This document shows, piece after piece, positions 25,276-43,207 of a stretch of DNA of 43,207 nucleotides (the stretch's first letter is position 1; the number at the start of each line of letters is the position of its first letter). The notes beneath the pieces are model-generated. The model was given only the letters and a program-made list of their open reading frames with translations. It made no database searches and was not told the origin of the DNA. Made by a program: the position numbers and the translations under genes. Source of the DNA: Allokutzneria sp. NRRL B-24872 (GTDB lineage: Bacteria > Actinomycetota > Actinomycetes > Mycobacteriales > Pseudonocardiaceae). The stretch covers positions 1 through 43,207 of the forward strand of contig NZ_MUMH01000099.1 in the NCBI RefSeq assembly GCF_002155965.1, given 5' to 3'.

Positions 25276-25833
25276 CTAACGATCTCCGCCCCAGGTCCGC
25301 CCCGCCCCGCTCGCCCGGTAGAGGTCGCGCAGCGTGGCCACCTCGGCCCCGTGGTGCACCACCTCCCGGTTGACGTGCAGCACGAGCGCGGCGAACGGCA
25401 GGTGCCCGTACGGCCCCTCCTTCGGCCCGCAGGGCCTGGCCAGAGCGTCCTCGTCGAGCGCGGCGACCCCGCTCGACCACGCGCGGTAGCCCTCGTCCAG
25501 GTACTCCAGCGCGGCCGAGGCACTCCCCGGCCAGGTGATCGTGTCCAGGCTGAACGAGCCGTCCCCGAAGTGGTTGGACGCCCGCATCGCCAGCACCACG
25601 CTGCCGATGTGCGCCAGCCGCCACGCGATCGTGGTGAACGGCGGCGGCTCCGGCGCGGGGAAGGCCCAGTCGCAGGTCAGCACGCCGTCCGGCCCCGGGC
25701 GCACCGACCAGCAGCCGGGAACGGGCTCCCAGAAGTACTCCTCGTCGGTCAACCCCTCCAGCCTCGGCCGGAGCATGTGCTTCCAGTACCAGTCGAGCTG
25801 CTCGCCGAGCTGGTCGTGCCACGTGGTTCCCAT
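25276..25833 (-). CDS. DinB-superfamily protein
   Basis: A 185-residue four-helix-bundle protein of the DinB/DUF664 type. Metal-ligand candidates are His in LAHIGSVV, His in LVLHVNREVVHHGAEV, and Asp/Glu in neighbouring helices. The three-His pattern separated by about 50 and 4 residues is the family signature. Members include thiol-dependent S-transferases and maleylpyruvate isomerase-like enzymes of mycothiol-using actinobacteria, but the substrate here is unknown. It lies between pafB and the short HTH gene, and its start (ATG 25833) is divergent from the HTH gene with a shared operator-like region. Confidence 0.8.
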   Translation of the reverse strand: MGTTWHDQLGEQLDWYWKHMLRPRLEGLTDEEYFWEPVPGCWSVRPGPDGVLTCDWAFPAPEPPPFTTIAWRLAHIGSVVLAMRASNHFGDGSFSLDTITWPGSASAALEYLDEGYRAWSSGVAALDEDALARPCGPKEGPYGHLPFAALVLHVNREVVHHGAEVATLRDLYRASGAGRTWGGDR

Positions 25834-25850
25834 GATCCGAGCGTATGGTC

Positions 25851-25892
25851 GATTCCCGACACGCCGGGACGGGAATCACCGTGACGGGAATC
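25851..25892. promoter_or_regulatory. GATTCCCG/CGGGAATC operator-like repeats
   Basis: GATTCCCG (25851-25858) is followed by CGGGAATC at 25870-25877 and again at 25885-25892. The first and second form an inverted repeat with an 11-bp gap. They lie between the divergent DinB and short HTH genes, so the HTH protein probably binds here. Confidence 0.6.
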
Positions 25893-25895
25893 GGG

Positions 25896-26255
25896 ATGAC
25901 CTACGAACAGGTGCACCTGGGCGCTCCGCTGGTCGAGCGGCAGCACCGGCTGATCGAGGAGCTGCGCGCGAGCGCCGCCCAACGCCTCTCCGGCGAGACC
26001 CTGGCCAGCCGACTCGGCGTCAGCGTGCGCACCGTCGAACGCGACGTGGCGCGCCTGGTCGAGGCCGGTGTGCCCATCAGCGTCCGTCGTGGCCCGCGCG
26101 GCGGCTACGCCTTCACCACCCGCGCCACCGTCGCCCCGGTACCGCTCACCCCGGGCGAGATCGCCGCCCTCGTCGCCGCCGTGGTCGCCGTCGGCCCCTA
26201 CTCCTCCGCCTCCGCCCGCACAGCTCTCGACAAACTCCTCACCGCCCTCACCTGA
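25896..26255 (+). CDS. Short YafY-like HTH regulator lacking a WYL domain
   Basis: From ATG 25896 it is 119 residues. An HTH_11-type winged helix (about 15-72; LASRLGVSVRTVERDVARLVEAG, then a PRGGYAF wing) is followed by the linker seen in YafY regulators (PLTPGEIAALVAAV, then SSASARTALDKLLTAL), after which the protein simply stops. The usual WYL ligand domain is absent. Longer in-frame starts at 25845 or 25881 would run through the GATTCCCG repeats, so I prefer 25896. It probably regulates the divergent DinB gene. Whether this is a stable short form or an old truncation is not clear; no WYL remnant is seen downstream. Confidence 0.75.
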   Translation: MTYEQVHLGAPLVERQHRLIEELRASAAQRLSGETLASRLGVSVRTVERDVARLVEAGVPISVRRGPRGGYAFTTRATVAPVPLTPGEIAALVAAVVAVGPYSSASARTALDKLLTALT

Positions 26256-26269
26256 CCCAGCTCCGTCTC

Positions 26270-26334
26270 TCGCGTTTTGGCAACTCCTTGCGATAGTTGA
26301 ACGTTCACATTCACATCACGTTGCCAAAACGCGA
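26270..26334. repeat. 15-bp perfect inverted repeat with a 35-bp centre
   Basis: TCGCGTTTTGGCAAC (26270-26284) and GTTGCCAAAACGCGA (26320-26334) match perfectly. The A/T-richer centre holds a palindrome TGAACGTTCA (26298-26307). It lies between the convergent HTH and pafA genes. It may be part of a two-way terminator or a tiny mobile remnant. No target-site duplication can be asserted. Confidence 0.6.
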
Positions 26335-26338
26335 AAAG

Positions 26339-26364
26339 GGGCGCCGCGCGGGGACGCGGCGCCC
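26339..26364 (-). terminator. Rho-independent terminator of pafA
   Basis: GGGCGCCGCG (26339-26348) pairs with CGCGGCGCCC (26355-26364) in a perfect 10-bp stem with a 6-nt loop, 17 bp after the pafA stop. On the minus strand the stem is followed by CTTTTCGCGTTTTGG, giving T-runs of four. Confidence 0.8.
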
Positions 26365-26380
26365 TTTCGGAGTGCGGGTG

Positions 26381-27739
26381 TCAGAGGGAGGCGATGAGGC
26401 GTTCGACGCGTTCGTCGACCGCGCGGAAGGGGTCCTTGCAGAGCACGGTCCGCTGGGCCTGGTCGTTGAGCTTGAGGTGCACCCAGTCGACGGTGAAGTC
26501 GCGACCCGCCTCCTGCGCGGCGGCGATGAAGTCCCCGCGCAGCTTGGCCCTGGTGGTCTGCGGGGGCGTGTCCTTGGCAGCCTCGATCTCGCTGTCGTCG
26601 GTCACCCGCAGCACCTGGTCCTTGCGCTGCAACAGGTCGAAGATGCCGCGCCCGCGCCGGATGTCGTGGTAGGCGAGGTCCAGCTGCGCGACGCGGGGGC
26701 TGGAGAGCTCCATGTCGTGCTTGGCCCGGTACCGCTCGATCAGCCGGTGCTTGATCGCCCAGTCGATCTCGCGGTCGATCAGCGTCAGGTCCTGGCGCTG
26801 CACCGCGTCCAGGGTGCGGCCCCACAGCTCGATGACCTTGTCGGCCATCGGGTCGGGCTGCCGCTGCGCGACGTGCTCGACCGCCTTCTCGTAGTACTCC
26901 CGCTGGATGTCCAGCGCGGAGGCCTCGCGCCCGCCGGCCAGCCGCACCAGGCGGGTGCCGGTGAGGTCGTGGCTGATCTCGCGGATGGCCCGTATCGGGT
27001 TGTCCAGGGTGAAGTCCTTGAACTGCACCCCGGCCTCGATCATCTCCAGCACGAGGTTGGCGCTGCCCACCTTGAGCAGCGTGGTCACCTCGGACATGTT
27101 CGAGTCGCCGACGATCACGTGCAGGCGCCGGTAGCGCTCGGCGTCGGCGTGCGGCTCGTCGCGGGTGTTGATGATCGGGCGCGAGCGCGTGGTGGCGCTG
27201 GAGACGCCCTCCCAGATGTGCTCGGCCCGCTGCGACAGGCAGTACACCGCGCCGCGCGGGGTCTGGAGCACCTTGCCCGCGCCGCAGATCAGCTGCCGCG
27301 TCACCAGGAACGGCAGCAGCACGTCGGCGATCCTGGAGAACTCCCCGGCGCGCGCCACGAGGTAGTTCTCGTGGCAGCCGTAGGAGTTGCCCGCGGAGTC
27401 GGTGTTGTTCTTGAAGAGGAAGATGTCCCCGCCGATGCCCTCGTCGGCCAGCCGCCGCTCGGCGTCGATGAGCAGGTCCTCCAGGATCCGCTCCCCCGCC
27501 TTGTCGTGGGTGACCAGCTGGGCCAGGTCGTCGCACTCGGCCGTGGCGTACTCCGGATGCGAGCCCACATCCAGGTACAGCCGGGAGCCGTTGCGCAGGA
27601 ACACGTTGGACGATCTGCCCCAGGACACCACACGACGGAAGAGGTAGCGCGCCACCTCATCCGGCGAGAGCCTGCGCTGCCCGTGGAAGGTGCAGGTCAC
27701 CCCGAACTCAGTCTCGATGCCGAAGATCCGCCGCTGCAT
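26381..27739 (-). CDS. pafA: Pup ligase PafA
   Basis: A 452-residue carboxylate-amine ligase that joins the C-terminal glutamate of Pup to a lysine of target proteins, using ATP. It is near-identical to mycobacterial PafA from the N-terminus ([20 protein letters not shown]) onward. Seen motifs include the ATP/Mg Glu in GIETEFG, the catalytic Asp in [33 protein letters not shown], and [19 protein letters not shown]. The C-terminal domain ends in [19 protein letters not shown]. Start ATG 27739 is 6 bp after a TACTGT -10 box, so it is probably leaderless. Length and conservation leave no real doubt. Confidence 0.98.
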
Positions 27740-27745
27740 ATGTCC

Positions 27746-27751
27746 ACAGTA
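27746..27751 (-). promoter_or_regulatory. Predicted leaderless promoter of pafA
   Basis: TACTGT on the minus strand (27751-27746), 6 bp from ATG 27739. It overlaps GTCCACAGTAGG, a partial copy of the dispersed GTCCACAGTGGAC palindrome. Confidence 0.5.
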
Positions 27752-27878
27752 GGGGGTCTTCGGGCGATCACCTGTGCGCCGATCGGGGAGAGAAGATCCG
27801 CGTGTCCCAAACGTCATCCCCACGGCGCACAACCGGGGCCGGTGTGCGCGCACATGTGACATTGCATAGCGTCGTGCT

Positions 27879-29378
27879 GTGATCGAGAAGCTGCACGCGG
27901 CCACGGAAGCCGTCATCGAACTGGATCAGGCGCTGGTGCGGCGCAGCGCGAGCCTGCCGCGCAGCAAGGCCGACCGCGCGCTCAAGACGCTCTCCCGGGC
28001 CGCCAACCACGGTGTGCTCTGGTTCGCCGTCGCGGGCCTGCTCGCCGTCCGCAAGGGACCGACCCGACGGGCCGCCGCGCGGGGTGTCGCGGCGATCGCG
28101 GGCACCAGTCCCACCGTGAACCTGGCGATGAAGCTGCTGCTGCCGCGCAGGCGCCCGGCCGCCGAGCTGATGCCGCCGCGCCGCAGGCTCTCCAGCCCGC
28201 CGACGTCCTCCTCCTTCCCCTCCGGTCACGCCGCCTCCGCCGCCGCGTTCACCACGGCGGTCGCCATGGAGTCACCGCTGGTCGGCGCCGCGATCGCGCC
28301 GCTGGCCGCGGCCGTGGCGTACTCGCGGGTGCACACCGGCGTGCACTGGGGCAGCGATGTGATCGCGGGCGCCGCCGTCGGCACCGGCATCGCGCTGGCG
28401 ACCCGGCGATGGTGGCCGGTGCACCCGGACGAGCCCGCCGAGGTCCGCCCCGACGTGGAGGCCGCCGCGCTGGACGAGGGCCGGGGGCTGTTGGTGCTGG
28501 TCAACCCGAACTCCGGGATCGACGGCGAGGACCCCTCCGAGCAGGTGCGCAGCGTCTGGCCGAACGCGCGGATCGTCAACCCAAAGGAGGGGATGGACCT
28601 CATCGAGCAGATCGACAAGGAGATCTCCGACTCCGTCGACGAGGTCAAGGCGCTCGGCGTGGCGGGCGGGGACGGTTCGGTCGCCGCGATGGCCTCGCTG
28701 GCCGCGCGCAAGAAGCTGCCGCTGGCGGTGATCCCGGCGGGCACGCTCAACCACTTCGCCCGCGACATCGGGATCGAGGGCATCCTCGACGTCGACGACG
28801 CGGTGCGCGAGGGCCACGCGGTCGGCGTCGACCTGGCCACGGTGAAGGTCGACGGCCAGCCCAAGCGCTGGTTCATCAACACCGCCAGCCTCGGCGGCTA
28901 CCCGGACATGGTGTCGCTGCGCGAGAAGTGGCAGGGCAAGTGGGGCAAGTGGCCCGCGGCGGCGGTCGCGCTGGTCCGCGTGCTGCACCAGGCCCAGCCG
29001 TTGGAGGTGCGGATCAACGGCAAGAGGCACAAGGTGTGGTTGCTCTTCGTCGGCAACGGCCCCTACCGGCCGCGCGGGTTCGCGCCCACGCGCAGGCCGC
29101 GCCTGGACGACGGGCTGCTGGACATCCGCTACGTGCGCGCGGACATCAAGTGGTCGCGCATCCGGTTCGTGGCCTCCGCGCTGGCCGGGGCGCTGCACCG
29201 CAGCCGCACCTACGTGCAGCAGGAGCGGCCGAACCTGGTGGTCGAGGTCCTGGGCTCGCCCGTGGCCATCGCCACCGACGGCGAGGTCGGGCCGGAGGGC
29301 AACCGGTTCCGCTTCGCCGCGCACGAGGCGGCGCTGCACGCCTACCGCGAGGAGCACGGCCGCAACAACCTCACCTGA
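27879..29378 (+). CDS. PAP2 phosphatase / diacylglycerol kinase fusion protein
   Basis: A 499-residue bifunctional protein. The N-terminal PAP2 (type 2 phosphatidic acid phosphatase) domain has all three signature motifs: [17 protein letters not shown] and [12 protein letters not shown], with four hydrophobic stretches between about residues 45 and 185. The C-terminal lipid-kinase domain (about 205-495) has [29 protein letters not shown] and [10 protein letters not shown]. Such fusions are common in actinobacteria and presumably turn over phosphatidate and diacylglycerol at the membrane. GTG 27879 follows a TAGCGT box by 6 bp (leaderless). It is separated from the CDPS gene by a hairpin, so it is probably not part of that pathway. 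Confidence 0.92.
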
Positions 29379-29387
29379 GCCACCCGG

Positions 29388-29427
29388 GCGGCGGCGTGAC
29401 GACCGGTGAACCCGGCCGCGCCGCCGC
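29388..29427 (+). terminator. Terminator-like hairpin after the PAP2/kinase gene
   Basis: GCGGCGGCG (29388-29396) and CGCCGCCGC (29419-29427) form a perfect 9-bp stem. The loop of 22 nt has its own CCGG elements. It starts 10 bp after the stop and separates this gene from the CDPS operon. Confidence 0.5.
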
Positions 29428-29503
29428 ACCCCCCGTTCAGTGGATTGCGGCCGGGCGTTCACGTGTTCGCAGGGTGATGTTCGGCCGCGACGAGGGAAAT
29501 GCC

Positions 29504-29549
29504 GTCACGCGCACGGGCAATACCGTGACCGGGGTCACCGATCTACGTT
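29504..29549 (+). promoter_or_regulatory. CDPS-P450 promoter with GTGAC palindromes
   Basis: GTGACC-GG-GGTCAC (29525-29538) is a perfect palindrome just upstream of a TACGTT -10 box (29544-29549). A further GTCACG lies at 29504-29509, inverted to CGTGAC at 29524-29529. The -10 is 6 bp from GTG 29556, so the message is leaderless. The palindrome covers the -35 region, so a repressor binding here would shut the operon. Confidence 0.6.
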
Positions 29550-29555
29550 GAGCGG

Positions 29556-30326
29556 GTGGCGATGAATCCCGGAGTTGTCTCCCGTTGTTCCGATCCGATC
29601 GTCCGTCCCTACACGGAGCGTTGCGCCGATCTGCTCAGCACCGGCGAGCACGCTCTGCTGGGGATCAGCTCGTTCAACAGCTACTACACCGACGAGCGCG
29701 TCGATCAGCTGCTGAGCTGGGCCTTCTGCGAGTTCTCCCGCGTCAACGTGCTGCTGCCGGGTGCCGAGGCGAGCTGGATCCCCAGCATGCGCGGCGCCGA
29801 CCCCGGCCGGGCCAAGAAGCGGGCGCGGCAGGAGGTGGCGCGACTGCGCAGGCGGGTGCAGCGGACGCTGGAGGACCTCGGCGTCGACGACCCGGACGCG
29901 GTCACCTTCACCTGGACCGAGGTGGCCGACAACGCCCACTACGACCGGCTCCTGGAGCAGGCGTGGGCCGGCTACCAGGACAACGAGGAGTTCCGCGAGG
30001 CGTGCGAGGCGATCTCCACGCGCGTGCTCCAGACGAACTTCGGCTCGGCCAACCCCGACCCGTGGACCCGTGAGTCGCTGATCGGCTACCTCTTCGCCGA
30101 GCTGCCGTTCCTGGTCGACACCCCGCGCATCCTCGGCGTGCCCAACTCGGTGTTCTGCTACCACCGGGAGAGCCCGCTGGTGGAACTGCTCTCGCGCAGC
30201 TCCTTCTCCCCCAGGATCAGCCCGGACCAGGGTCACGTCGTCGTCTCGATCGAGTCCGAGCCGATCGTGCCCGCGCCGCGAGCCGCCGCAGACGACCACG
30301 CCCGGGAGGGTCTTTCGGTGCGATGA
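29556..30326 (+). CDS. Cyclodipeptide synthase (CDPS)
   Basis: A 256-residue enzyme that joins two aminoacyl-tRNAs into a cyclic dipeptide (2,5-diketopiperazine). The diagnostic N-terminal motif LLGISSFNSYY contains the catalytic Ser38 that holds the first aminoacyl group, and Asn41 aligns with Asn40 of AlbC. The second diagnostic stretch, GYLFAELPFLVDTP, has Tyr178 and Glu182 at the same numbers as the AlbC catalytic pair. VPNSVFCYHR holds Tyr202. Asn41/Tyr202 favour the NYQ-type subfamily over XYP. The basic helix around residues 85-104 (Lys/Arg-rich) fits tRNA binding. The amino acids used cannot be predicted. GTG 29556 follows TACGTT (leaderless), and the stop overlaps the P450 start (ATGA). 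Confidence 0.92.
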   Translation: MAMNPGVVSRCSDPIVRPYTERCADLLSTGEHALLGISSFNSYYTDERVDQLLSWAFCEFSRVNVLLPGAEASWIPSMRGADPGRAKKRARQEVARLRRRVQRTLEDLGVDDPDAVTFTWTEVADNAHYDRLLEQAWAGYQDNEEFREACEAISTRVLQTNFGSANPDPWTRESLIGYLFAELPFLVDTPRILGVPNSVFCYHRESPLVELLSRSSFSPRISPDQGHVVVSIESEPIVPAPRAAADDHAREGLSVR

Positions 30327-31552
30327 CCGCACCGTCACCGTCGGCCGCCCCGTCGTCCCCACCGGCGTGGCCGAGGGTGGACTACCCGTTCGCCAGGGAC
30401 CCGCACGGCGGACCGCCGCCGGTCTTCGACGAGCTGCGCCAGCGGTGGCCGGTGTGCCCGATGCGGATGCCCGACGGTGAGCGGGTCTGGCTGGTCACCC
30501 GCTACCGCGACGTGGCCACCGTGCTCTCCGATCCACGCTTCTCCCGCGCCCTGACCTGCACCGGAGACGCGAAGCTGTTGCGCGTCGGGGTGTTCGGGGA
30601 CCCGGCGAACATGTTCAACATGGACGCGCCCGACCACACCAGGCTGCGCCGCATCCTGGCCCCCGTCTTCGCCCCGGGGGCCGTGCGCGGCCTGCGGCCC
30701 TTCGTCGAGCGCTCGATCGGCGCGCTGGTCGAGCACCTCGCCCAGCTGACGCCGCCGGTGGACCTGATGACGCAGCTGGCGATCCCGCTGCCGATCTCGG
30801 TGAACTGCGACCTGTTCGGCATCGCGGCGAAGGACTGGGCCGAGGCCGCGATGCTGGCCTCCGGGTTCAACGCCACCACGACGGCTCCCGGCGACCTGCG
30901 GCGGCAGTACCGGCGGCTGCTGGCGCTGCTGGAGCGACTCGTCGCCGAGCAGCGCGCGCGGCCGGGGATCGGCGTGCTGTCGATGATGATCGCAGCCCGC
31001 GACGAGGAGGACCGGCTCAGCGACGACGAACTGCTGGCCACGGCGGCGGTGCTGCTGGTCGGCGGCACCGAGACGGTGTCCTCGGTCGTCGGCCTGGGCG
31101 TGCAGTCGCTGCTCAACCACCCCGAGCAGCTGGCGGCCTGCACCGCCAACCCCCGGCTGTGGAAGACCGCGGTCGAGGAGGTCATGCGCTACCGCCCGGG
31201 CTTCGACCTGAGCGCGCTGCGCGTCGCCCGCGAGCCGGTCGAGCTGTCCGGCACGGTGATCCCGCAGGGGGCCTCGGTGTGCGCTCCGGTGCTCGCGGCG
31301 GCCTACGACCCGTCGGTGTTCCCGGACCCGCACCGCTTCGACATCCACCGCGACAACGCCTCACCCATCCACTTCGGGCACGGTCCGCACTACTGCATCG
31401 GCGCGGGGCTGTCCCGGCTCGAACTGGAGGTGACGTTCTCGAAGCTGTTCCAGCGCCTGCCCGGGCTGCGCTTGGCCACCAGCCCGGAGCGCATCCCGTT
31501 CCAGCGCGGCTCGGCGCACATGCGGCCCACCCGGCTGATGGTCACCTGGTGA
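30323..31552 (+). CDS. Cytochrome P450 paired with the CDPS
   Basis: A 409-residue bacterial class I P450. Seen: I-helix GGTET (247-251, oxygen-activating), K-helix ExxR (EVMR, 286-289), and the heme-binding loop FGHGPHYC with Cys358 as the axial ligand. There is no membrane anchor. ATG 30323 overlaps the CDPS stop by 4 bp, and a GGAGG lies upstream. In known CDPS-P450 pairs (for example Rv2275-CYP121, making mycocyclosin) the P450 couples, hydroxylates or links aromatic rings of the diketopiperazine. That role is inferred from position. No ferredoxin or reductase gene is adjacent, so it must borrow redox partners. Confidence 0.94.
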   Translation: MTAPSPSAAPSSPPAWPRVDYPFARDPHGGPPPVFDELRQRWPVCPMRMPDGERVWLVTRYRDVATVLSDPRFSRALTCTGDAKLLRVGVFGDPANMFNMDAPDHTRLRRILAPVFAPGAVRGLRPFVERSIGALVEHLAQLTPPVDLMTQLAIPLPISVNCDLFGIAAKDWAEAAMLASGFNATTTAPGDLRRQYRRLLALLERLVAEQRARPGIGVLSMMIAARDEEDRLSDDELLATAAVLLVGGTETVSSVVGLGVQSLLNHPEQLAACTANPRLWKTAVEEVMRYRPGFDLSALRVAREPVELSGTVIPQGASVCAPVLAAAYDPSVFPDPHRFDIHRDNASPIHFGHGPHYCIGAGLSRLELEVTFSKLFQRLPGLRLATSPERIPFQRGSAHMRPTRLMVTW

Positions 31553-31557
31553 CGCGC

Positions 31558-31592
31558 GACCGCCCCCTGGCCAGTGAGGCCAAGGGGCGGTC
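31558..31592 (+). terminator. Terminator of the CDPS-P450 operon
   Basis: GACCGCCCCCTGGCC (31558-31572) and GGCCAAGGGGCGGTC (31578-31592) form a 15-bp stem with one mismatch and a 5-nt loop, 5 bp after the P450 stop. Confidence 0.8.
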
Positions 31593-31610
31593 GGAGACCT
31601 TCGCGGAGGG

Positions 31611-31639
31611 GGTTCGCCGGTCCTGAAGACCGGGGAACC
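31611..31639 (-). terminator. Terminator-like hairpin after prcA
   Basis: GGTTCGCCGGTC (31611-31622) pairs with GACCGGGGAACC (31628-31639) around loop CTGAA, 12 positions with one G-G mismatch. It lies 9 bp beyond the prcA stop on the minus strand. With the neighbouring P450 hairpin it seals two convergent operons. Confidence 0.65.
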
Positions 31640-31648
31640 TCGCGGCGG

Positions 31649-32458
31649 TCAGGACTTGTCGGGGTCGGCAGGCTTGTCGGTCTCCGCCTTGTCCGGGGCG
31701 GGAGTGTCCGCGGTGTCTGCCGCGGGGGCGGGGAGCAGCGCCTCCAGTTCGGCCCCGGTGATCCGGCGGAACGCCCGCTGCGGACGGGCGCGGTCCAGGA
31801 TCGCGACCTCCAGCTTGCCGCCGGAGCCGCCCTGGGCCGGGACCGCCGCCGCGGCGGTGGCCTGCTTGGCGCTGGCGGAGGCGCCAGGGGCGCTCGCGCT
31901 CAGCGCCGCCGCCGCGACCTGGAGGGCGTCGGAGAGCCCCATGTCCTCCCGGTAGGACGCCTTGAGGGCGCTGCTGATCGCCTCCGCGTGCCCGCCCATG
32001 ACCACGAACTGCGGCTCGTCGAAGATCGAGCCGTCGTAGGTGAGCCGGTAGAGCTGGTCCTCGGCGGAGGAGGCGCCGACCTCGGCGATGCAGATCTCCA
32101 CCTCGAAGGGCTTGAGCTGCTCGGTGAAGATCGAGCCCAGGCTCTGCGCGAAAACGTTTGCCAGCGCCCGGGCGTTGACATCGCGCGGGTGGTAGGAGTA
32201 GCCGCGCACGTCCACCCAGCGGATGCCCGCGGTGCGCAGGTTCTCGAACTCGCTGTAGCGGCCGACGGCGGCGAAGCCGATCCGGTCGTAGATCTCGGAG
32301 ACCTTGTGCAGCGTGGTGGACATGTTCTCGGCGACGAAGAGCACGCCGCCGGCGTAGGTGAGCACGACGACGCTGCGGCCCTTGGCGATGCCCTTGCGGG
32401 CCAGCTCCGAGCGGTCCCGCATCACCTGTTCGGCGGATGCGTACAACGGCATGGTCAT
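31649..32458 (-). CDS. prcA: Proteasome alpha subunit PrcA
   Basis: A 269-residue 20S proteasome alpha subunit, forming the outer rings and gate. The N-terminal gating segment and H0 helix ([25 protein letters not shown]) are followed by the Ntn-fold core ([50 protein letters not shown]). There is no propeptide and no catalytic Thr, as expected. The Ala/Pro/Asp-rich C-terminal tail (about 235-269) is longer than in M. tuberculosis. ATG 32458 is chosen because GGAG lies 6 bases upstream (ATG 32452 is the alternative). It ends the dop-pup-prcB-prcA operon. Confidence 0.97.
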
Positions 32459-32513
32459 GGCGAGCTCCAGGCGTGAAGAGTGCGGTCAGGGGCCGGGGTG
32501 GGACGGCGCGGTC

Positions 32514-33383
32514 TCAGCCGCCGGGGCGTTCGTGGCGCCCGCGCACCACGGCCTCGGCGACCTCGGCCACCTCGTCCGCGCCGAGCCGGACCGAGCCGCT
32601 CTCCTCGACGGTGGCCACGATCGGGTAGATCCGCCTGGTCAGGTCGGGCCCGCTGGTGGCGGAGTCGTCGTCGGCGGCGTCGTAGAGCGCTTCGACGGCG
32701 TTGCGCACGGCCGTGTCCCGGTCCGCGCTCACCTCGTGCCGCTTCTTCAGCGCGCCCTTGGCGAACACCGAGCCGGAGCCCACCGCGTGGTAGCCGCCGT
32801 GCTCGTCGTAGCGGCCGCCGGTGACGTCGTAGGAGACGATCCGGCCCCTGCGCTCGTCGAGGTCGTAGCCGACGAACAGCGGCAGCACCGCCAGGCCCGC
32901 CATGGCCGCGTCGAGGTTGCCGCGCAGCATCGTGGCCAGCTTGTTCGCCTTGCCGTCCAGCGACAGCGGCACGCCTTCGAGCTTCTCGTAGTGCCGCAGC
33001 TCGACGGTGAACAGCCGGACCATCTCCACCGCGAGCCCCGCGGCGCCGGCGATGCCGACCGCGGAGTACTCGTCGGTGAGGAAGACCTTCTCCATGTCGC
33101 GCTGGGCGATCACGTTGCCCATGGTGGCCCTGCGGTCACCGGCGATCAGCACGCCGCCGTCGTAGACCAGCGCGACGATCGTGGTGCCGTGCGGGGCGCG
33201 CGCCTCGCTCCCGTGCCCACCGCCGTGGCTCCCGTGGAGTGCGCCGCCGGGGGCGTGTCTGCGCCCCGGCAGCAGGTCGGGCGCGGCGGCCTGCAAGAAC
33301 TCGCTGAACGACGACACGCCCGGGGTGAAGAAGGCGGACGGCAGGGCTGCGCCCGGGTAGGACCGGGCCGAGGGGTTGTCCAT
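32514..33383 (-). CDS. prcB: Proteasome beta subunit PrcB (catalytic)
   Basis: A 289-residue precursor of the catalytic subunit. A propeptide of 66 residues ends APHG just before Thr67 ([21 protein letters not shown]), which becomes the N-terminal nucleophile after autocleavage; the Asp and Lys partners lie in AGDRRAT and MEKVFL. Propeptide residues 43-65 are rich in His and Gly (five His), unlike the mycobacterial one. [20 protein letters not shown] and [13 protein letters not shown] are core beta-subunit motifs. ATG 33383 has GGAG nine bases before it and is preferred to TTG 33398. It lies 57 bp after pup. Confidence 0.97.
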
Positions 33384-33440
33384 CGGCTTTGTCTCCAAGG
33401 GTTTCTCGGCTGGGACGGGAGCGGGGCGGACCCGCTGCGG

Positions 33441-33635
33441 CTACTCGCCGCCCTTCTGCACGTAGGCCCGGACGAAGTCCTCGGCGTTCTCCTCGAGGAC
33501 GTCGTCGATCTCGTCGAGGATCGAGTCGACGTCCTCGCCCATCTTCTCCCGGCGTTCCTGTCCGGCCGCCGCCGCGTCGTCCGACCCGTCGTCGCCGTCG
33601 CCGCCGCCCTGCCGCTGCTTCTGCTCCTGTGCCAT
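33441..33635 (-). CDS. pup: Prokaryotic ubiquitin-like protein Pup, ending GGE
   Basis: A 64-residue disordered tag. The N-terminus is Gln/Gly/Asp rich (MAQEQKQRQGGGDGDDGSDD), and the helix-forming part binds ARC and the ligase (DSILDEIDDVLEENAEDFV, then RAYVQKGGE). The last residue is Glu encoded by GAG before TAG, so Pup is made in the ligation-ready form and does not need deamidation by Dop, unlike mycobacterial Pup that ends GGQ. ATG 33635 has a strong GGAGGG site. An upstream in-frame start would add a leader with no resemblance to Pup. Confidence 0.98.
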   Translation of the reverse strand: MAQEQKQRQGGGDGDDGSDDAAAAGQERREKMGEDVDSILDEIDDVLEENAEDFVRAYVQKGGE

Positions 33636-33669
33636 CTCGCCCTCCGGTTCGATAGGCGCCTGTGTCCAA

Positions 33670-33692
33670 ACAGTACCGATCGGGACCGACAC
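33670..33692 (-). promoter_or_regulatory. Candidate PafBC-type promoter of pup
   Basis: On the minus strand, GTGTCGGTC (33692-33684), 8 bp, TACTGT (33675-33670). This matches TTGTCRGTG-N8-TANNNT at 7 of 9 bases with exact spacing and a full -10. The transcript would start near 33663, giving a 27-nt leader that includes the pup ribosome site. Confidence 0.45.
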
Positions 33693-33738
33693 TCGTCCCG
33701 CACCGGGCGTTGCTCCGTCTGATCGATCTTGTTACGGA

Positions 33739-35238
33739 TCAGCGTCGGGTCAGGGTCGCCACCAGCTGTTCGGCGGTTTCGGAGTCCTGCAGCAGCTGTT
33801 CCACGTGCGCCTTGGTGCCGCGCAGCGGCTCCAGCGTGGGGATGCGCACCAGCGACTCCCGGCCCAGGTCGAAGATCACCGAGTCCCAGGACGCCGCGGC
33901 CACCTCGCCGGGGTAGCGGGACAGACAGCGGCCGCGGAAGTAGGCCCTGGTGTCCTGCGGCGGCTCCTTGATCGCCTCGCGGACCTCCTCCTCGGTGACC
34001 AGCCTGCGCATCGAGCCGCGCGCCACCAGCCGGTTGTACAGGCCCTTGTCCAGCCGCACGTCGGAGTACTGCAGGTCGACCAGCTGGAGCCGGGGCGAGG
34101 CCCAGGTCAGGCCGTCGCGGGCGCGGTAGCCCTCCAGCAGCCGCAGCTTGGCGGGCCAGTCGAGGCGGTCGGCGCACTCCATCGGGTCCCTGGCCAGCGC
34201 GTCGAGCACCTCGCCCCACACCCGCAGCACGTCCAGGGTGGACTGCGCGGCGCCGTGGCGGTGGTAGAACTCCACGGCGCGGTCGTGGTACGCGCGCTGG
34301 ATGTCCAGCCCGGTGTACTTGCGCCCGCCGACGAGGTCGACGCGGACCTTCAGCGAGGGGTCGCGGCTGATCGTGTGCACCGCGCGGACCGGGTCGGACA
34401 GCCGCAGGTCGTCGAAGCGCATGCCGGACTCGATCATGTCGAGCACGATCGCGGCGGTGCCCACCTTGAGGTAGGTGGAGTACTCGGCGAGGTTGGCGTC
34501 GCCGATGATCACGTGCAGCCTGCGGTACTTGTCCGCGTCGGCGTGCGGCTCGTCGCGGGTGTTGATGATGCCGCGCTTGAGCGTGGTCTCCAGGCCGACC
34601 TCGACCTCGATGTAGTCCGAGCGCTGGGAGAGCTGGTAGCCCGCGTCCTCGCTGGCGGTGCCGAGGCCGACCCGGCCGGAGCCGACCACGACCTGGCGGG
34701 AGGCGAAGAACGGGGTCAGGCCCGCGATCACCGCGGTGAACGGGGTGGAGCGCGACATCAGGTAGTTCTCGTGGGTGCCGTAGCTGGCGCCCTTGCCGTC
34801 GATGTTGTTCTTGTAGAGCTGGATCTTGGGCTGGCCGGGCACGCTCGCCGAGCGCAGCGCGGCCTCCTCCATGATCCGCTCACCGGCCTTGTCCCAGATC
34901 ACCACGTCCCTGGCGTTGGTCAGCTCGGGGGTGGAGTACTCCGGGTGCGCGTGGTCGACGTACAGGCGCGCGCCGTTGGTGAGGATGACGTTGGCCGCGC
35001 CCAGGTCCTCGACGTCCGGGTCGGTCGGGGGCAGCCCGGGCGCGCCCAGGTCGAAGCCCCGCGCGTCCCGCAACGGTGACTCCACCTCGTAGTCCCAGCG
35101 CGCGCGTCGCGCCCTGGGGATCTCGGCCGCCGCCGCGTAGGCGAGGACGACCTGGGTGGAAGTGAGCACCGGGTTGGCCGCAGGGTCGCCCGGCACTGAG
35201 ATGCCGTACTCCACCTCGGTTCCCATGATCCGCCGCAT
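33739..35238 (-). CDS. dop: Deamidase/depupylase Dop
   Basis: A 499-residue enzyme homologous to PafA that removes Pup from tagged proteins and deamidates Pup-Gln to Pup-Glu where needed. Seen: MGTEVEYGI (ATP/Mg Glu), the Dop-specific loop region ([15 protein letters not shown]), the catalytic Asp in [36 protein letters not shown], and [21 protein letters not shown]. Start ATG 35238 follows a TAAGGT -10 box by 7 bp, so leaderless translation is likely; GTG 35247 is the longer alternative. With Pup ending GGE, depupylation may be its main activity here. It heads the dop-pup-prcB-prcA cluster. Confidence 0.97.
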
Positions 35239-35245
35239 GTGGTGC

Positions 35246-35251
35246 ACCTTA
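35246..35251 (-). promoter_or_regulatory. Predicted leaderless promoter of dop
   Basis: TAAGGT on the minus strand (35251-35246), 7 bp before ATG 35238. It is the same hexamer and spacing as upstream of pafB (25235-25240). Confidence 0.5.
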
Positions 35252-35281
35252 CGGCCTCCGTGTGACGATCAGGGGGTGGCG

Positions 35282-35800
35282 GTGATCGACGAGTTGGTTG
35301 CGATCTTCGACGCGCACGGTGACAGGGTCGGCTCAAGGCCGCGTTCGGTGATGCGCGCCCAGGGTCTGTGGCACGCGTCGACGGCGGTCCTGGTGCGCTC
35401 CGGCGACGGGACGCGGGTGTACGTGCACAAGCGCAGCGACTCCAAGGACTTCGCGCCGGGGATGCACGACTGCTGGGCGGGCGGGGTGCTCGGCGCCGAC
35501 GAGGACCCGGCCTCGTGCGCCGAGCGCGAGCTGGCCGAGGAGCTGGGGATCTCCGGCGTGCCGGTGCGGCCCCTGTTCACCGCCACCTACCTCCAGCCAC
35601 CCGTGCGCGCCCACATGTTCGCCTTCGAGGCGCGGTGGGACGGCCCCGTGGTGTGGCAGCCGGAGGAGGTCGTCGCGGGCGGTTGGATGTCCCTGCCCGA
35701 CCTGCGCGCCCGCCTCGCCGACCCCACCTGGCCCTTCGTCCCCGACGGCCGCCAACTCATCGACCACTGGCTCACCCACCACCGCCCCACCGACGCTTAA
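35282..35800 (+). CDS. NUDIX hydrolase
   Basis: A 172-residue NUDIX protein. The NUDIX box is complete (residues about 67-89): Gly in GVLGADE, then RELAEELGI, matching Gx5Ex7REUxEExGU. GTRVYVHKRSDSKDF and MHDCWAGGVLGADE resemble the YfcD/IPP-isomerase-like subgroup that hydrolyses nucleoside diphosphate-linked compounds. The substrate is unknown. GTG 35282 is chosen since AGGGGG ends five bases before it (GTG 35276 is possible). It is divergent from dop. Its TAA stop lies at the edge of the repeat array (TTAAGCCCTGAA). Confidence 0.87.
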   Translation: MIDELVAIFDAHGDRVGSRPRSVMRAQGLWHASTAVLVRSGDGTRVYVHKRSDSKDFAPGMHDCWAGGVLGADEDPASCAERELAEELGISGVPVRPLFTATYLQPPVRAHMFAFEARWDGPVVWQPEEVVAGGWMSLPDLRARLADPTWPFVPDGRQLIDHWLTHHRPTDA

Positions 35801-35803
35801 GCC

Positions 35804-35910
35804 CTGAATGACTCCTTCAGGTGGTTGGACGTGCTGAATGACTCGTTCAGCACTTCTAACCACCTCAATGACTCGTTCATGTGGTTGAGCGTGCTGAACG
35901 AGTCATTCAG
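35804..35910. repeat. 30-bp-period palindrome array (locus 3, four copies)
   Basis: Four 17-bp imperfect palindromes lie at 35804-35820, 35834-35850, 35864-35880 and 35894-35910, with centres exactly 30 bp apart (35812, 35842, 35872, 35902). The consensus is CTGAATGACTCGTTCAG; the fourth copy is its exact reverse complement. The 13-bp spacers are GTGGTTGGACGTG, its approximate reverse complement CACTTCTAACCAC, and GTGGTTGAGCGTG, so spacer direction alternates and copies 2 and 3 sit in 43-bp palindromes. It lies between convergent NUDIX and DUF1304 genes. Confidence 0.9.
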
Positions 35911-35931
35911 GTGGTGTCAGGGCGATTGGGG

Positions 35932-36294
35932 TCAGGTGGCGATGAGGAGGGCGGCGAGGGTGAGCGCGCCGGGGATGACCTGGACGAAGAGGATGCGCTT
36001 GGTGGCGGTGGCCGCGCCGTAGACGCCCGCGACGATGACGCAGACGGTGAAGAAGACCTTGAACTGGAAGCCGACGTCGCCGCCCACGATCAGGCCCCAC
36101 GCCAGGCCCGCAGCGAGGAAGCCGTTGTAGAGGCCCTGGTTGGCCGCGAGCGGGGCGGAGGCGGCGGCGAACTCCGGGTCGGTGCCGAAGGCGGCCCGCG
36201 CTCGGGGTGTCTGCCAGAGGAACATTTCCAGCACCAGGATGTAGGCGTGCAGGACGGCGAGGACGCCGACCAGGAAGTTCGCCAGGAGCTGCAT
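35932..36294 (-). CDS. DUF1304 membrane protein
   Basis: A 120-residue polytopic protein with four membrane helices. It has the DUF1304 signature NQGLYNGFLAAGL in the middle and LHAYILVLEMFLW near the start. The function of the family is unknown. ATG 36294 follows a strong GAAGGAGG site. A perfect dyad CGCTACG-GGAT-CGTAGCG (36328-36345) about 35 bp upstream overlaps a probable TACGAT -10 box and suggests tight regulation, perhaps by a distant TetR-type protein. It is convergent with the NUDIX gene across the palindrome array. Confidence 0.87.
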   Translation of the reverse strand: MQLLANFLVGVLAVLHAYILVLEMFLWQTPRARAAFGTDPEFAAASAPLAANQGLYNGFLAAGLAWGLIVGGDVGFQFKVFFTVCVIVAGVYGAATATKRILFVQVIPGALTLAALLIAT

Positions 36295-41426: not shown

Positions 41427-43207
41427 TTACAGGTACTGACCGGTGTTGTTGGCGTTGTCGATCGCCCGGCCCGTCTCCTGGTTCTTGCCCGTGATCAGGG
41501 TCCGGATGTAGACGATGCGCTCGCCCTTCTTGCCGGAGATCCTGGCCCAGTCGTCCGGGTTGGTCGTGTTGGGCAGGTCCTCGTTCTCGGCGAACTCGTC
41601 GACGATCGCGTCCAGCAGGTGCTGCACGCGCAGACCGATCTGCTGGTGGTCGAGCACCGACTTGATCGCGTACTTCTTCGCCCGGTCCACGATGTTCTGG
41701 ATCATCGCGCCGGAGTTGAAGTCCCGGAAGAACAGGACCTCCTTGTCACCGTTGGCGTAGGTGACCTCCAGGAAACGATTGTCCTCCGACTCCTCGTACA
41801 TGCGCTCCACCGTGCGCTGCACCATCGCGTCGATGCAGGCGCGCTTGTCCCCGTGGAACTCGGCGAGGTCGTCCTCGTGGATGGGCAGGTTGTCGGTCAG
41901 GTACTTGGAGAAGATGTCGGTGGCCGCCTCGGCGTCCGGCCGCTCGATCTTGATCTTCACGTCGAGCCTGCCGGGTCGCAGGATCGCCGGGTCGATCATG
42001 TCCTCGCGGTTGGAGGCGCCGATGACGATGACGTTCTCCAGGCCCTCGACACCGTCGATCTCGCTGAGCAGCTGCGGCACGATCGTGGTCTCCACGTCCG
42101 AGCTGACGCCGCTGCCCCGGGTCCGGAAGATCGAGTCCATCTCGTCGAAGAACACGATCACCGGGGTGCCCTCGGAGGCCTTCTCCCGGGCCCGCTGGAA
42201 GATCAGCCGGATGTGCCGCTCGGTCTCGCCGACGAACTTGTTGAGCAGCTCCGGGCCCTTGATGTTGAGGAAGAACGACTTCGCCTGGTCGTGGTTGGCG
42301 TCGCCGCGCGCCTTGGCGACCTTCTTCGCCAGGGAGTTGGCAACGGCCTTGGCGATGAGCGTCTTGCCGCACCCGGGCGGGCCGTAGAGCAGCACGCCCT
42401 TGGGGGGCCGCAGCTCGTACTCGCGGAAGAGGTCCCCGTGCAGGAACGGCAGCTCCACCGCGTCGCGGATCTGCTCGATCTGCCGGAACAGGCCACCGAT
42501 GTCCTCGTACTGGACGTCGGGCACCTCCTCCAGCACCAGGTCCTCGACCTCGGCCTTGGGCACCCGCTCGTAGGCGTAGCCCGCCTTGCTGTCCACGAGC
42601 AGGGAGTCACCGGGCTTGAGCGGCGCGTCCAGCAGCGGGGCCGCCAGCAGCACCACCCGCTCCTCGTCGGCGTGCCCGACCACCAGTGCCCTGGTGACGC
42701 CTTGCACGTCGGACTCGGTGTTGAGCAGCTCGCGCAGGGTGCAGACCTCGCCGATGCGCTCGAAGTCGCCGCCCTCCACCACGGTGAGCGCCTCGTTGAG
42801 CCGGACCGACTGCCCCTGCTGGAGCGAGTCGGTCTCCACCGCCGGGGACACCGCGACGCGCATGCGCCGCCCCGAGGTGAACACGTCCACGGTGTTGTCG
42901 GGATGCCTGGCCAGGAACACGCCGTAGCCGCTGGGCGGCTGGGCGAGCCGGTCCACCTCCTCTCGCAGGGCGAGGAGCTGACCCCGGGCCTCCTTGAGCG
43001 TCTCCACGAGCTTGGTGTTGCGCTCGGTGAGCTGGCTCACCCGGTTGGACGCCTCGGCCAGCCGCTGTTCCAGCAGCCGGACGTGCCGGGGCGATTCGGT
43101 CAGTTTGCGGCGCAACAGCGCCACTTCGTCCTCAAGAAATCGGATCTGCGCGCTCAACTCGGCCGCGCTGCCGCCACTCTTCCGCTCGCCGCCCTGCTCA
43201 GGGCGGC
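41427..43207 (-). CDS. arc: Proteasome-associated ATPase ARC/Mpa (5' end outside window)
   Basis: Hexameric AAA ATPase that binds Pup and unfolds substrates into the proteasome. An N-terminal coiled coil (from [18 protein letters not shown] through [15 protein letters not shown]) binds Pup, then two OB domains (about 75-235 of the visible part). The AAA domain has Walker A GPPGCGKT, Walker B VFFDEMDS, and the arginine-finger region PGRLDVKIK. The chain ends NTGQYL, the penultimate-Tyr motif that docks on and opens the 20S gate. The frame stays open to the edge (upstream codons read ...[15 protein letters not shown]), and TTG 43157 begins mid-domain relative to Mpa, so the true start lies beyond 43207. 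Confidence 0.97.

Follow-up and report, generated by a model that had tools for sequence, protein, structure and literature searches.

What does a cyclodipeptide synthase (CDPS) that shares four bases with a cytochrome P450 gene produce, and does it matter that the two genes lie among those of the Pup-proteasome system? Both questions are raised by a locus in the window, as we call the whole 43,207-nucleotide stretch of Allokutzneria sp. NRRL B-24872 DNA that was analysed here. We consider it probable that the pair forms a minimal Allokutzneria operon, in which the CDPS makes cyclo(Phe-Ile) or a similar hydrophobic cyclodipeptide and the P450 then oxidises it, the proteasome genes being surroundings. 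A first-pass annotation of this DNA had already proposed a minimal CDPS-P450 pathway for a modified diketopiperazine; that reading is right, but two-gene clusters of this type are well known. The features discussed below are collected in the table.

Features of the CDPS-P450 locus and its flanks, in window coordinates
Feature	Position	Strand	Details and evidence
pafA, Pup ligase, flanking	26381..27916 as called, family match from ~27733	-	TIGR03686, 778 bits
PAP2 phosphatase + diacylglycerol/lipid kinase, flanking, outside the pathway	27879..29378	+	Pfam
Conserved non-coding block 5' of the CDPS	29396..29525		96.9% identity, three genomes
CDPS, NYH subfamily (by residues)	29556..30326	+	GTG start, alternative ATG at 29562; Pfam/NCBIfam, catalytic and pocket residues, dN/dS
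Cytochrome P450	30323..31552	+	start overlaps CDPS stop by 4 bases (ATGA); Pfam, sequence, motifs, dN/dS
GC-rich hairpin between convergent P450 and prcA	31557..31593		z -5.5 / -7.3 on the two strands versus shuffles
prcA, flanking	31649..32458	-	TIGR03691, 350 bits
prcB, flanking	32514..33398	-	TIGR03690, 356 bits
pup, flanking	33441..33692	-	ORF ending QKGGE, named by eye
dop, flanking	33739..35247	-	TIGR03688, 752 bits

The first gene of the pair encodes a protein of 256 residues that matches PF16715 with 205.4 bits (cut-off 27) over the full domain (profile positions 3-219 of 220) and TIGR04539 with 215.8 bits (cut-off 45). In CDPSs, a serine together with Tyr178, Glu182 and Tyr202 has catalytic roles, and Asn40, Tyr202 and His203 in AlbC numbering mark the NYH subfamily. 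Aligned to AlbC (3oqv), the window CDPS keeps S38, N41, Y178, E182, Y202 and H203. The annotated synthase with intact Ser38, Tyr178, Glu182 and Tyr202 is thus borne out, with both models far above cut-off, and since N41, Y202 and H203 are kept, the enzyme is by these residues a member of the NYH subfamily, a label taken from Gondry et al. 2018 (PMC5816076). It is the only CDPS found in the window's genome, which is 95% complete.

The product, which the annotation had called not predictable, is a question largely answered for this first enzyme, as far as pocket residues can tell, by a published relative. Gondry et al. assayed 42 CDPSs in E. coli, 32 of which were active (PMC5816076). One of these, the Allokutzneria albata enzyme CDPS 84, gave cyclo(Phe-Ile) along with traces of cLI and cMI; Table 1 of the paper gives cFI as main product for this enzyme only. 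The sole F/I row of Table 2 reads LGLPWFLF for P1 and IRVTRSP for P2; the version of the table used carries no enzyme numbers, and we assigned the row to CDPS 84 as the sole F/I row and the sole main producer of cFI. Mapped by the positions given in the methods of the same paper, the pocket of the window CDPS likewise consists of LGLPWFLF and IRVTRSP, a match to CDPS 84 at 15 of 15 residues, and both sister orthologues carry the same 15. As a control of the mapping, the CDPS of G213 (L060) yielded LGLAWIGC/VAYHRLA, the table's sole F/G row, which fits CDPS 78. The comparison of P1 and P2 with characterised members, which the annotation had suggested, therefore leads to a known, if weak, cyclo(Phe-Ile) synthase, with which the window CDPS also has NYH subfamily and genus in common. 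Pocket identity and genus, rather than a full-length alignment, suggest that CDPS 84, assayed as a lone enzyme in E. coli, is orthologous to the window CDPS, whose native product would then be cyclo(Phe-Ile). The enzyme would use two aminoacyl-tRNAs, with Phe-tRNA and Ile-tRNA as the likeliest pair, link the aminoacyl groups on the catalytic S38 as other members of the CDPS family do, and release cyclo(Phe-Ile) or a closely similar hydrophobic cyclodipeptide.

But how far does the E. coli product reflect the native one? The UV area recorded for CDPS 84 was 54, which makes it nearly inactive, compared with thousands for many other entries of the table (PMC5816076), and because the tested activity is so weak, the native substrate pair of the window CDPS may differ. 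The main rival to our reading is hence the same two-gene pathway with a native cyclodipeptide other than cyclo(Phe-Ile), built from another aminoacyl-tRNA pair that E. coli supplies poorly. Besides the low yield and the traces of cLI and cMI, the published pocket assignment leaves room for it: the authors put a question mark on both pockets of CDPS 84 and likened its P1 to those of enzymes that use prolyl groups and of CDPS 77, which uses leucyl. The long stem (1.23, support 100/100) on which the window CDPS and its two orthologues stand in the CDPS tree would fit it as well. Direct evidence for such a product there is none, and if E. coli expresses an enzyme from an actinobacterium poorly, this would explain the yield equally; we regard a different native product as rather unlikely and retain cyclo(Phe-Ile).

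The tree itself, which the annotation had called for, comprises 59 rows after removal of repeats (identical over residues 21-220) and places the three enzymes in a clade of the genus alone; the nearest other row is reached by a path of 2.37, with an open fork above the clade. Family searches gave CDPS matches in 89 of 386 genomes by protein and in 91 of 390 by HMM. Loci were taken for about 30 matches per family search, and the tree and the pocket table (64 loci including repeats of one CDPS, plus the pockets of 11 class loci) cover part of the family accordingly. Among 394 genomes drawn from the class, matches at E 1e-20 or better turned up in 26, counting the window's own; the top match besides that one is 40% identical. 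Plasmids contributed 23 matching records out of 72,556 (best place 37% identity) and phages none out of 50,697. No CDPS more than 40% identical over the domain was found outside the genus in the 386 family genomes, the 394 class genomes, the plasmids or the phages. Within the genus, the CDPS is present in all three genomes of the set, and a pattern scan of named genomes returned a single match, the 92% identical CDPS of Allokutzneria sp. A3M-2-11 (L002).

Two side observations concern other CDPSs. The sister genome G001 carries a second one (C1:1194171-1194818; L003, L007) that is 34% identical, has the pocket CGFPGLFF/AWVRQVK, of a type seen often among the CDPSs fetched from the family, and has no P450 that we found within 1.5 kb. 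Two CDPS-like loci of one genus (L043, L044) have alanine in place of the catalytic serine and keep the other five residues checked.

Turning to the second gene, it encodes a protein of 409 residues with a PF00067 match of 111.3 bits, a haem loop (FGHGPHYCIG) and an I-helix motif (GGTET); the haem-Cys loop and the acid-alcohol pair are present. The ATGA overlap of the two genes was correctly described before, and the co-oriented P450 adjoins the CDPS in this way in all three genus genomes. Both sisters (G001, G002) have the identical gene order pafA - PAP2/kinase - CDPS - P450 - prcA - prcB - dop, and identity to them is 91-93% for the CDPS and 91-93% for the P450. Pairwise dN/dS among the three genomes is 0.09-0.18 for the CDPS, 0.16-0.17 for the P450 (with the slices of G001 and G002 beginning three codons early) and 0.11-0.14 for the neighbouring PAP2/kinase gene. 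CDPS and P450 are therefore both under purifying selection, that is, kept. The two are presumably co-transcribed and coupled, and gene order, from which alone the substrate is deduced, suggests the product of the CDPS as what the P450 acts on. It would oxidise the cyclodipeptide by hydroxylation, desaturation or ring oxidation, presumably drawing on redox partners encoded elsewhere in the genome.

Could the P450 simply be a bystander, with the cyclodipeptide as final product or signal and the P450 merely downstream? Its relatives would allow this. Matches to the P450 at E 1e-60 or better occur in 162 of 200 genomes of the family, and the 27 best loci outside the genus among those fetched are 38-43% identical to it; none of the 27 has a CDPS within about 1.5 kb. 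The overlap, the retention of both genes in all three genomes under similar purifying selection, and the recurrence of two-gene CDPS-P450 clusters nevertheless make an unrelated P450 improbable, and we continue with the P450 as the tailoring enzyme of the pair.

The same survey bears on where this P450 came from. P450s adjoining other CDPSs are 26-31% identical to it at four family loci and 27-32% at five class loci. These loci come from counts that covered about 1.5 kb on each side of the CDPS and P450s detectable by tblastn with the window P450: 10 of 64 family rows (six of them the three genus genomes entered twice, plus four others) and 5 of 11 class loci. The three genus P450s occupy a long branch (2.78) of their own in a 34-row tree that has open forks and long branches, apart both from the relatives without a CDPS and from the four CDPS-adjacent P450s. 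Since the relatives are not CDPS-linked, the CDPS-adjacent P450s are less similar and the genus branch stands alone, this P450 may well have joined its CDPS independently of other CDPS-P450 pairs. Reading the reaction from the tree was rejected in view of the open forks and long branches. The neighbours of two of the nearest P450s (a TetR regulator, a cytidylyltransferase, a helicase and a DUF885 protein) give no hint of the reaction either. The top solved-structure match, among the best 60 of 480 matches, is 6j82 (254 bits), which we take to be TleB; the likeness is at family level only and has no bearing on the reaction. The annotation had named a close characterised homologue with a known product as the finding that would count against it: the CDPS has one in CDPS 84, but for the P450 we found no published work in the openly licensed literature.

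How does the pair compare with known systems? It is a further case of the two-gene type represented by YvmC-CypX and Rv2275-CYP121, one in which the P450 step is uncharacterised. YvmC-CypX, which serves pulcherriminic acid formation in Bacillus, has the same core of CDPS and P450, and YvmC is the top solved-structure match of the window CDPS (124 bits). However, YvmC makes cLL, and the window P450 scores 131.8 bits with the model for CDPS-associated P450s, TIGR04538, below its cut-off of 500. Rv2275-CYP121 (mycocyclosin) resembles the window pair in combining an NYH CDPS with a P450 in a two-gene cluster, but the Rv2275 product is cYY, and the window CDPS reaches 128.1 bits with the cyclodityrosine synthase model NF052540, below the cut-off of 300. 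GutD, NasB, NzeB, AspB and TtpB share the CDPS + P450 organisation, several of them in two-gene clusters; as described in the part of the review PMC7954767 that we draw on, they act on tryptophan residues of diketopiperazines, which would set them apart from the window P450. The substrates covered there are Trp, Tyr, Leu-Leu or Ile-Leu diketopiperazines. The CDPS pocket differs from Trp enzymes too, as far as the published pocket table goes: its P1 (LGLPW...) is not of the VA/IA type of one Trp group, and CDPS 73-75, the other group, share P at position 4 but have L at position 5, where the window enzyme has W.

The pair had also been described as sealed by its own terminators, a claim that stands on one side only. 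Downstream, the GC-rich hairpin at 31557-31593 is, judged by its predicted fold, a probable two-way terminator without T-tract. Both sister genomes have hairpins at the same place but of different sequence, in an intergenic region that is poorly conserved (55% identical bases in the three genomes). The longest unbroken stems between P450 and prcA measure 10, 14 and 22 pairs in the three genomes; that of G001 has 14 pairs, and the minimum-energy fold of G001 uses only part of it. Terminators of the T-tract type were not found at the pair, and the interval 25500-36000 contains one match where 2.5 are expected. The upstream seal finds no support, as positions 29393-29530 fold no better than shuffles (z -0.9). 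A 75-nt stretch just 3' of the PAP2/kinase gene could form a hairpin (-36.7 kcal/mol, a value without shuffle comparison), and part of its sequence differs in G002.

Upstream of the CDPS lies a block that is far more conserved than the gene it precedes: 96.9% versus 86.6% identical bases in the three genomes, with 68% at the fourfold sites of the CDPS (window versus G001). By alignment, G002 carries the block too. It matches no Rfam family (E cut-off 1) and shows no unusual folding, and because it is highly conserved and non-coding-like besides, the simplest reading of 29396-29525 is a regulatory region, which we consider probable. A small protein was weighed and is unlikely, the changes in the sole open frame falling mostly off third positions (by eye). 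Although 33 of 60 genomes drawn match the block at E 0.01 or better, only G000 and G001 do so along its length (the draw was made without G002); the other matches are short, at most 44 bases, and mostly concern the GC-rich first third. Within the block, GTTC occurs at 29435, 29457 and 29479, a spacing of 22 bp (by eye).

There is also a bolder joint reading: a P450 of a lineage otherwise not linked to CDPSs would have been recruited independently in the Allokutzneria ancestor, would oxidise a Phe/Ile-type diketopiperazine, as no known CDPS-associated P450 does, and so yield a new scaffold, with the conserved 130-bp upstream block controlling expression. We consider this combination less likely than not.

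But what about the proteasome genes? The pair does lie between pafA and prcA, as annotated, with the addition that the PAP2/DAGK gene, absent from the earlier description, separates pafA from the CDPS; a proteasomal ATPase gene is found further along at 41427-43124. As called, the ORFs of pafA and of the PAP2/kinase gene share 38 bases in a head-to-head arrangement (27879-27916). For the pafA-dop region, 60 family genomes were drawn, two of the genus were set aside, and G183, G189 and G021 were left out because their pafA or dop is absent, incomplete or located on a different contig. In the remaining 55, pafA and prcA are always present, and relatives of the window CDPS or P450 between them were found in none (E 1e-8). 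The PAP2/kinase gene belongs to the standing gene order of the family: it sits between pafA and prcA in 41 of these genomes and was not found there in 14. Its distance to prcA in the 41 is below 200 bp in 15, 200-1000 bp in 10 and above 1 kb in 16; overall, the gap before prcA ranges from 46 bp to about 55 kb, the largest being 20 kb (G383) and 55 kb (G188).

What fills these gaps are mostly unrelated genes, judging from the 20 ORFs scanned out of 54 coding-like ones (GC filter) in 14 larger gaps: Hsp70-like, amidohydrolase, FGGY kinase, FAD oxidoreductase, WD40/caspase and LuxR-AAA genes, as well as FtsK-like, MFS, PEP mutase-like and DUF2252 genes and one extra proteasome-subunit-like gene, among others. 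Large gaps with differing cargo are seen, for example, in L102, L103, L104, L117, L120 and L174-L176. In G201, the extra proteasome-subunit-like gene (L099:3556-4458; PF00227, 122 bits) stands between PAP2/kinase and prcA, besides prcA and prcB. A mobile-element origin was considered and dropped: none of the 20 scanned ORFs matched a recombinase model, and one is an FtsK/SpoIIIE ATPase.

With the pair absent from all 55 other genomes and gap size and cargo varying, it is a genus-specific occupant of a gap that took up different genes in several lineages. The place is conserved among relatives within the genus, at the same site in all three genomes, and the annotation's word "unusual" holds in that the position is fixed there and the pair occurs in none of the 55 others, but less so given how widely the gap size varies in the family. 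A functional tie to the Pup-proteasome, in which the product would signal to protein turnover or be controlled by it, could appeal to this fixed position in the three genomes. However, the pair runs on the strand opposite to prcA-prcB with a hairpin kept between them in all three, and its absence from the pafA-prcA region in the 55 other family genomes leaves no evidence that the neighbourhood is relevant to function; such a tie is very improbable. Since the gap before prcA took up different genes in several lineages, proximity to proteasome genes is by itself no sign of function.

Finally, the oxidation of a cyclo(Phe-Ile)-type product by its adjoining P450, our preferred reading, defines a small, testable pathway, which joins the pocket of a published weak producer to a P450 for which our searches brought up no publication. 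Should this P450 oxidise cyclo(Phe-Ile), the pair would extend the CDPS-linked P450 chemistry set out in the 2021 review (PMC7954767), as far as the part of it consulted goes.
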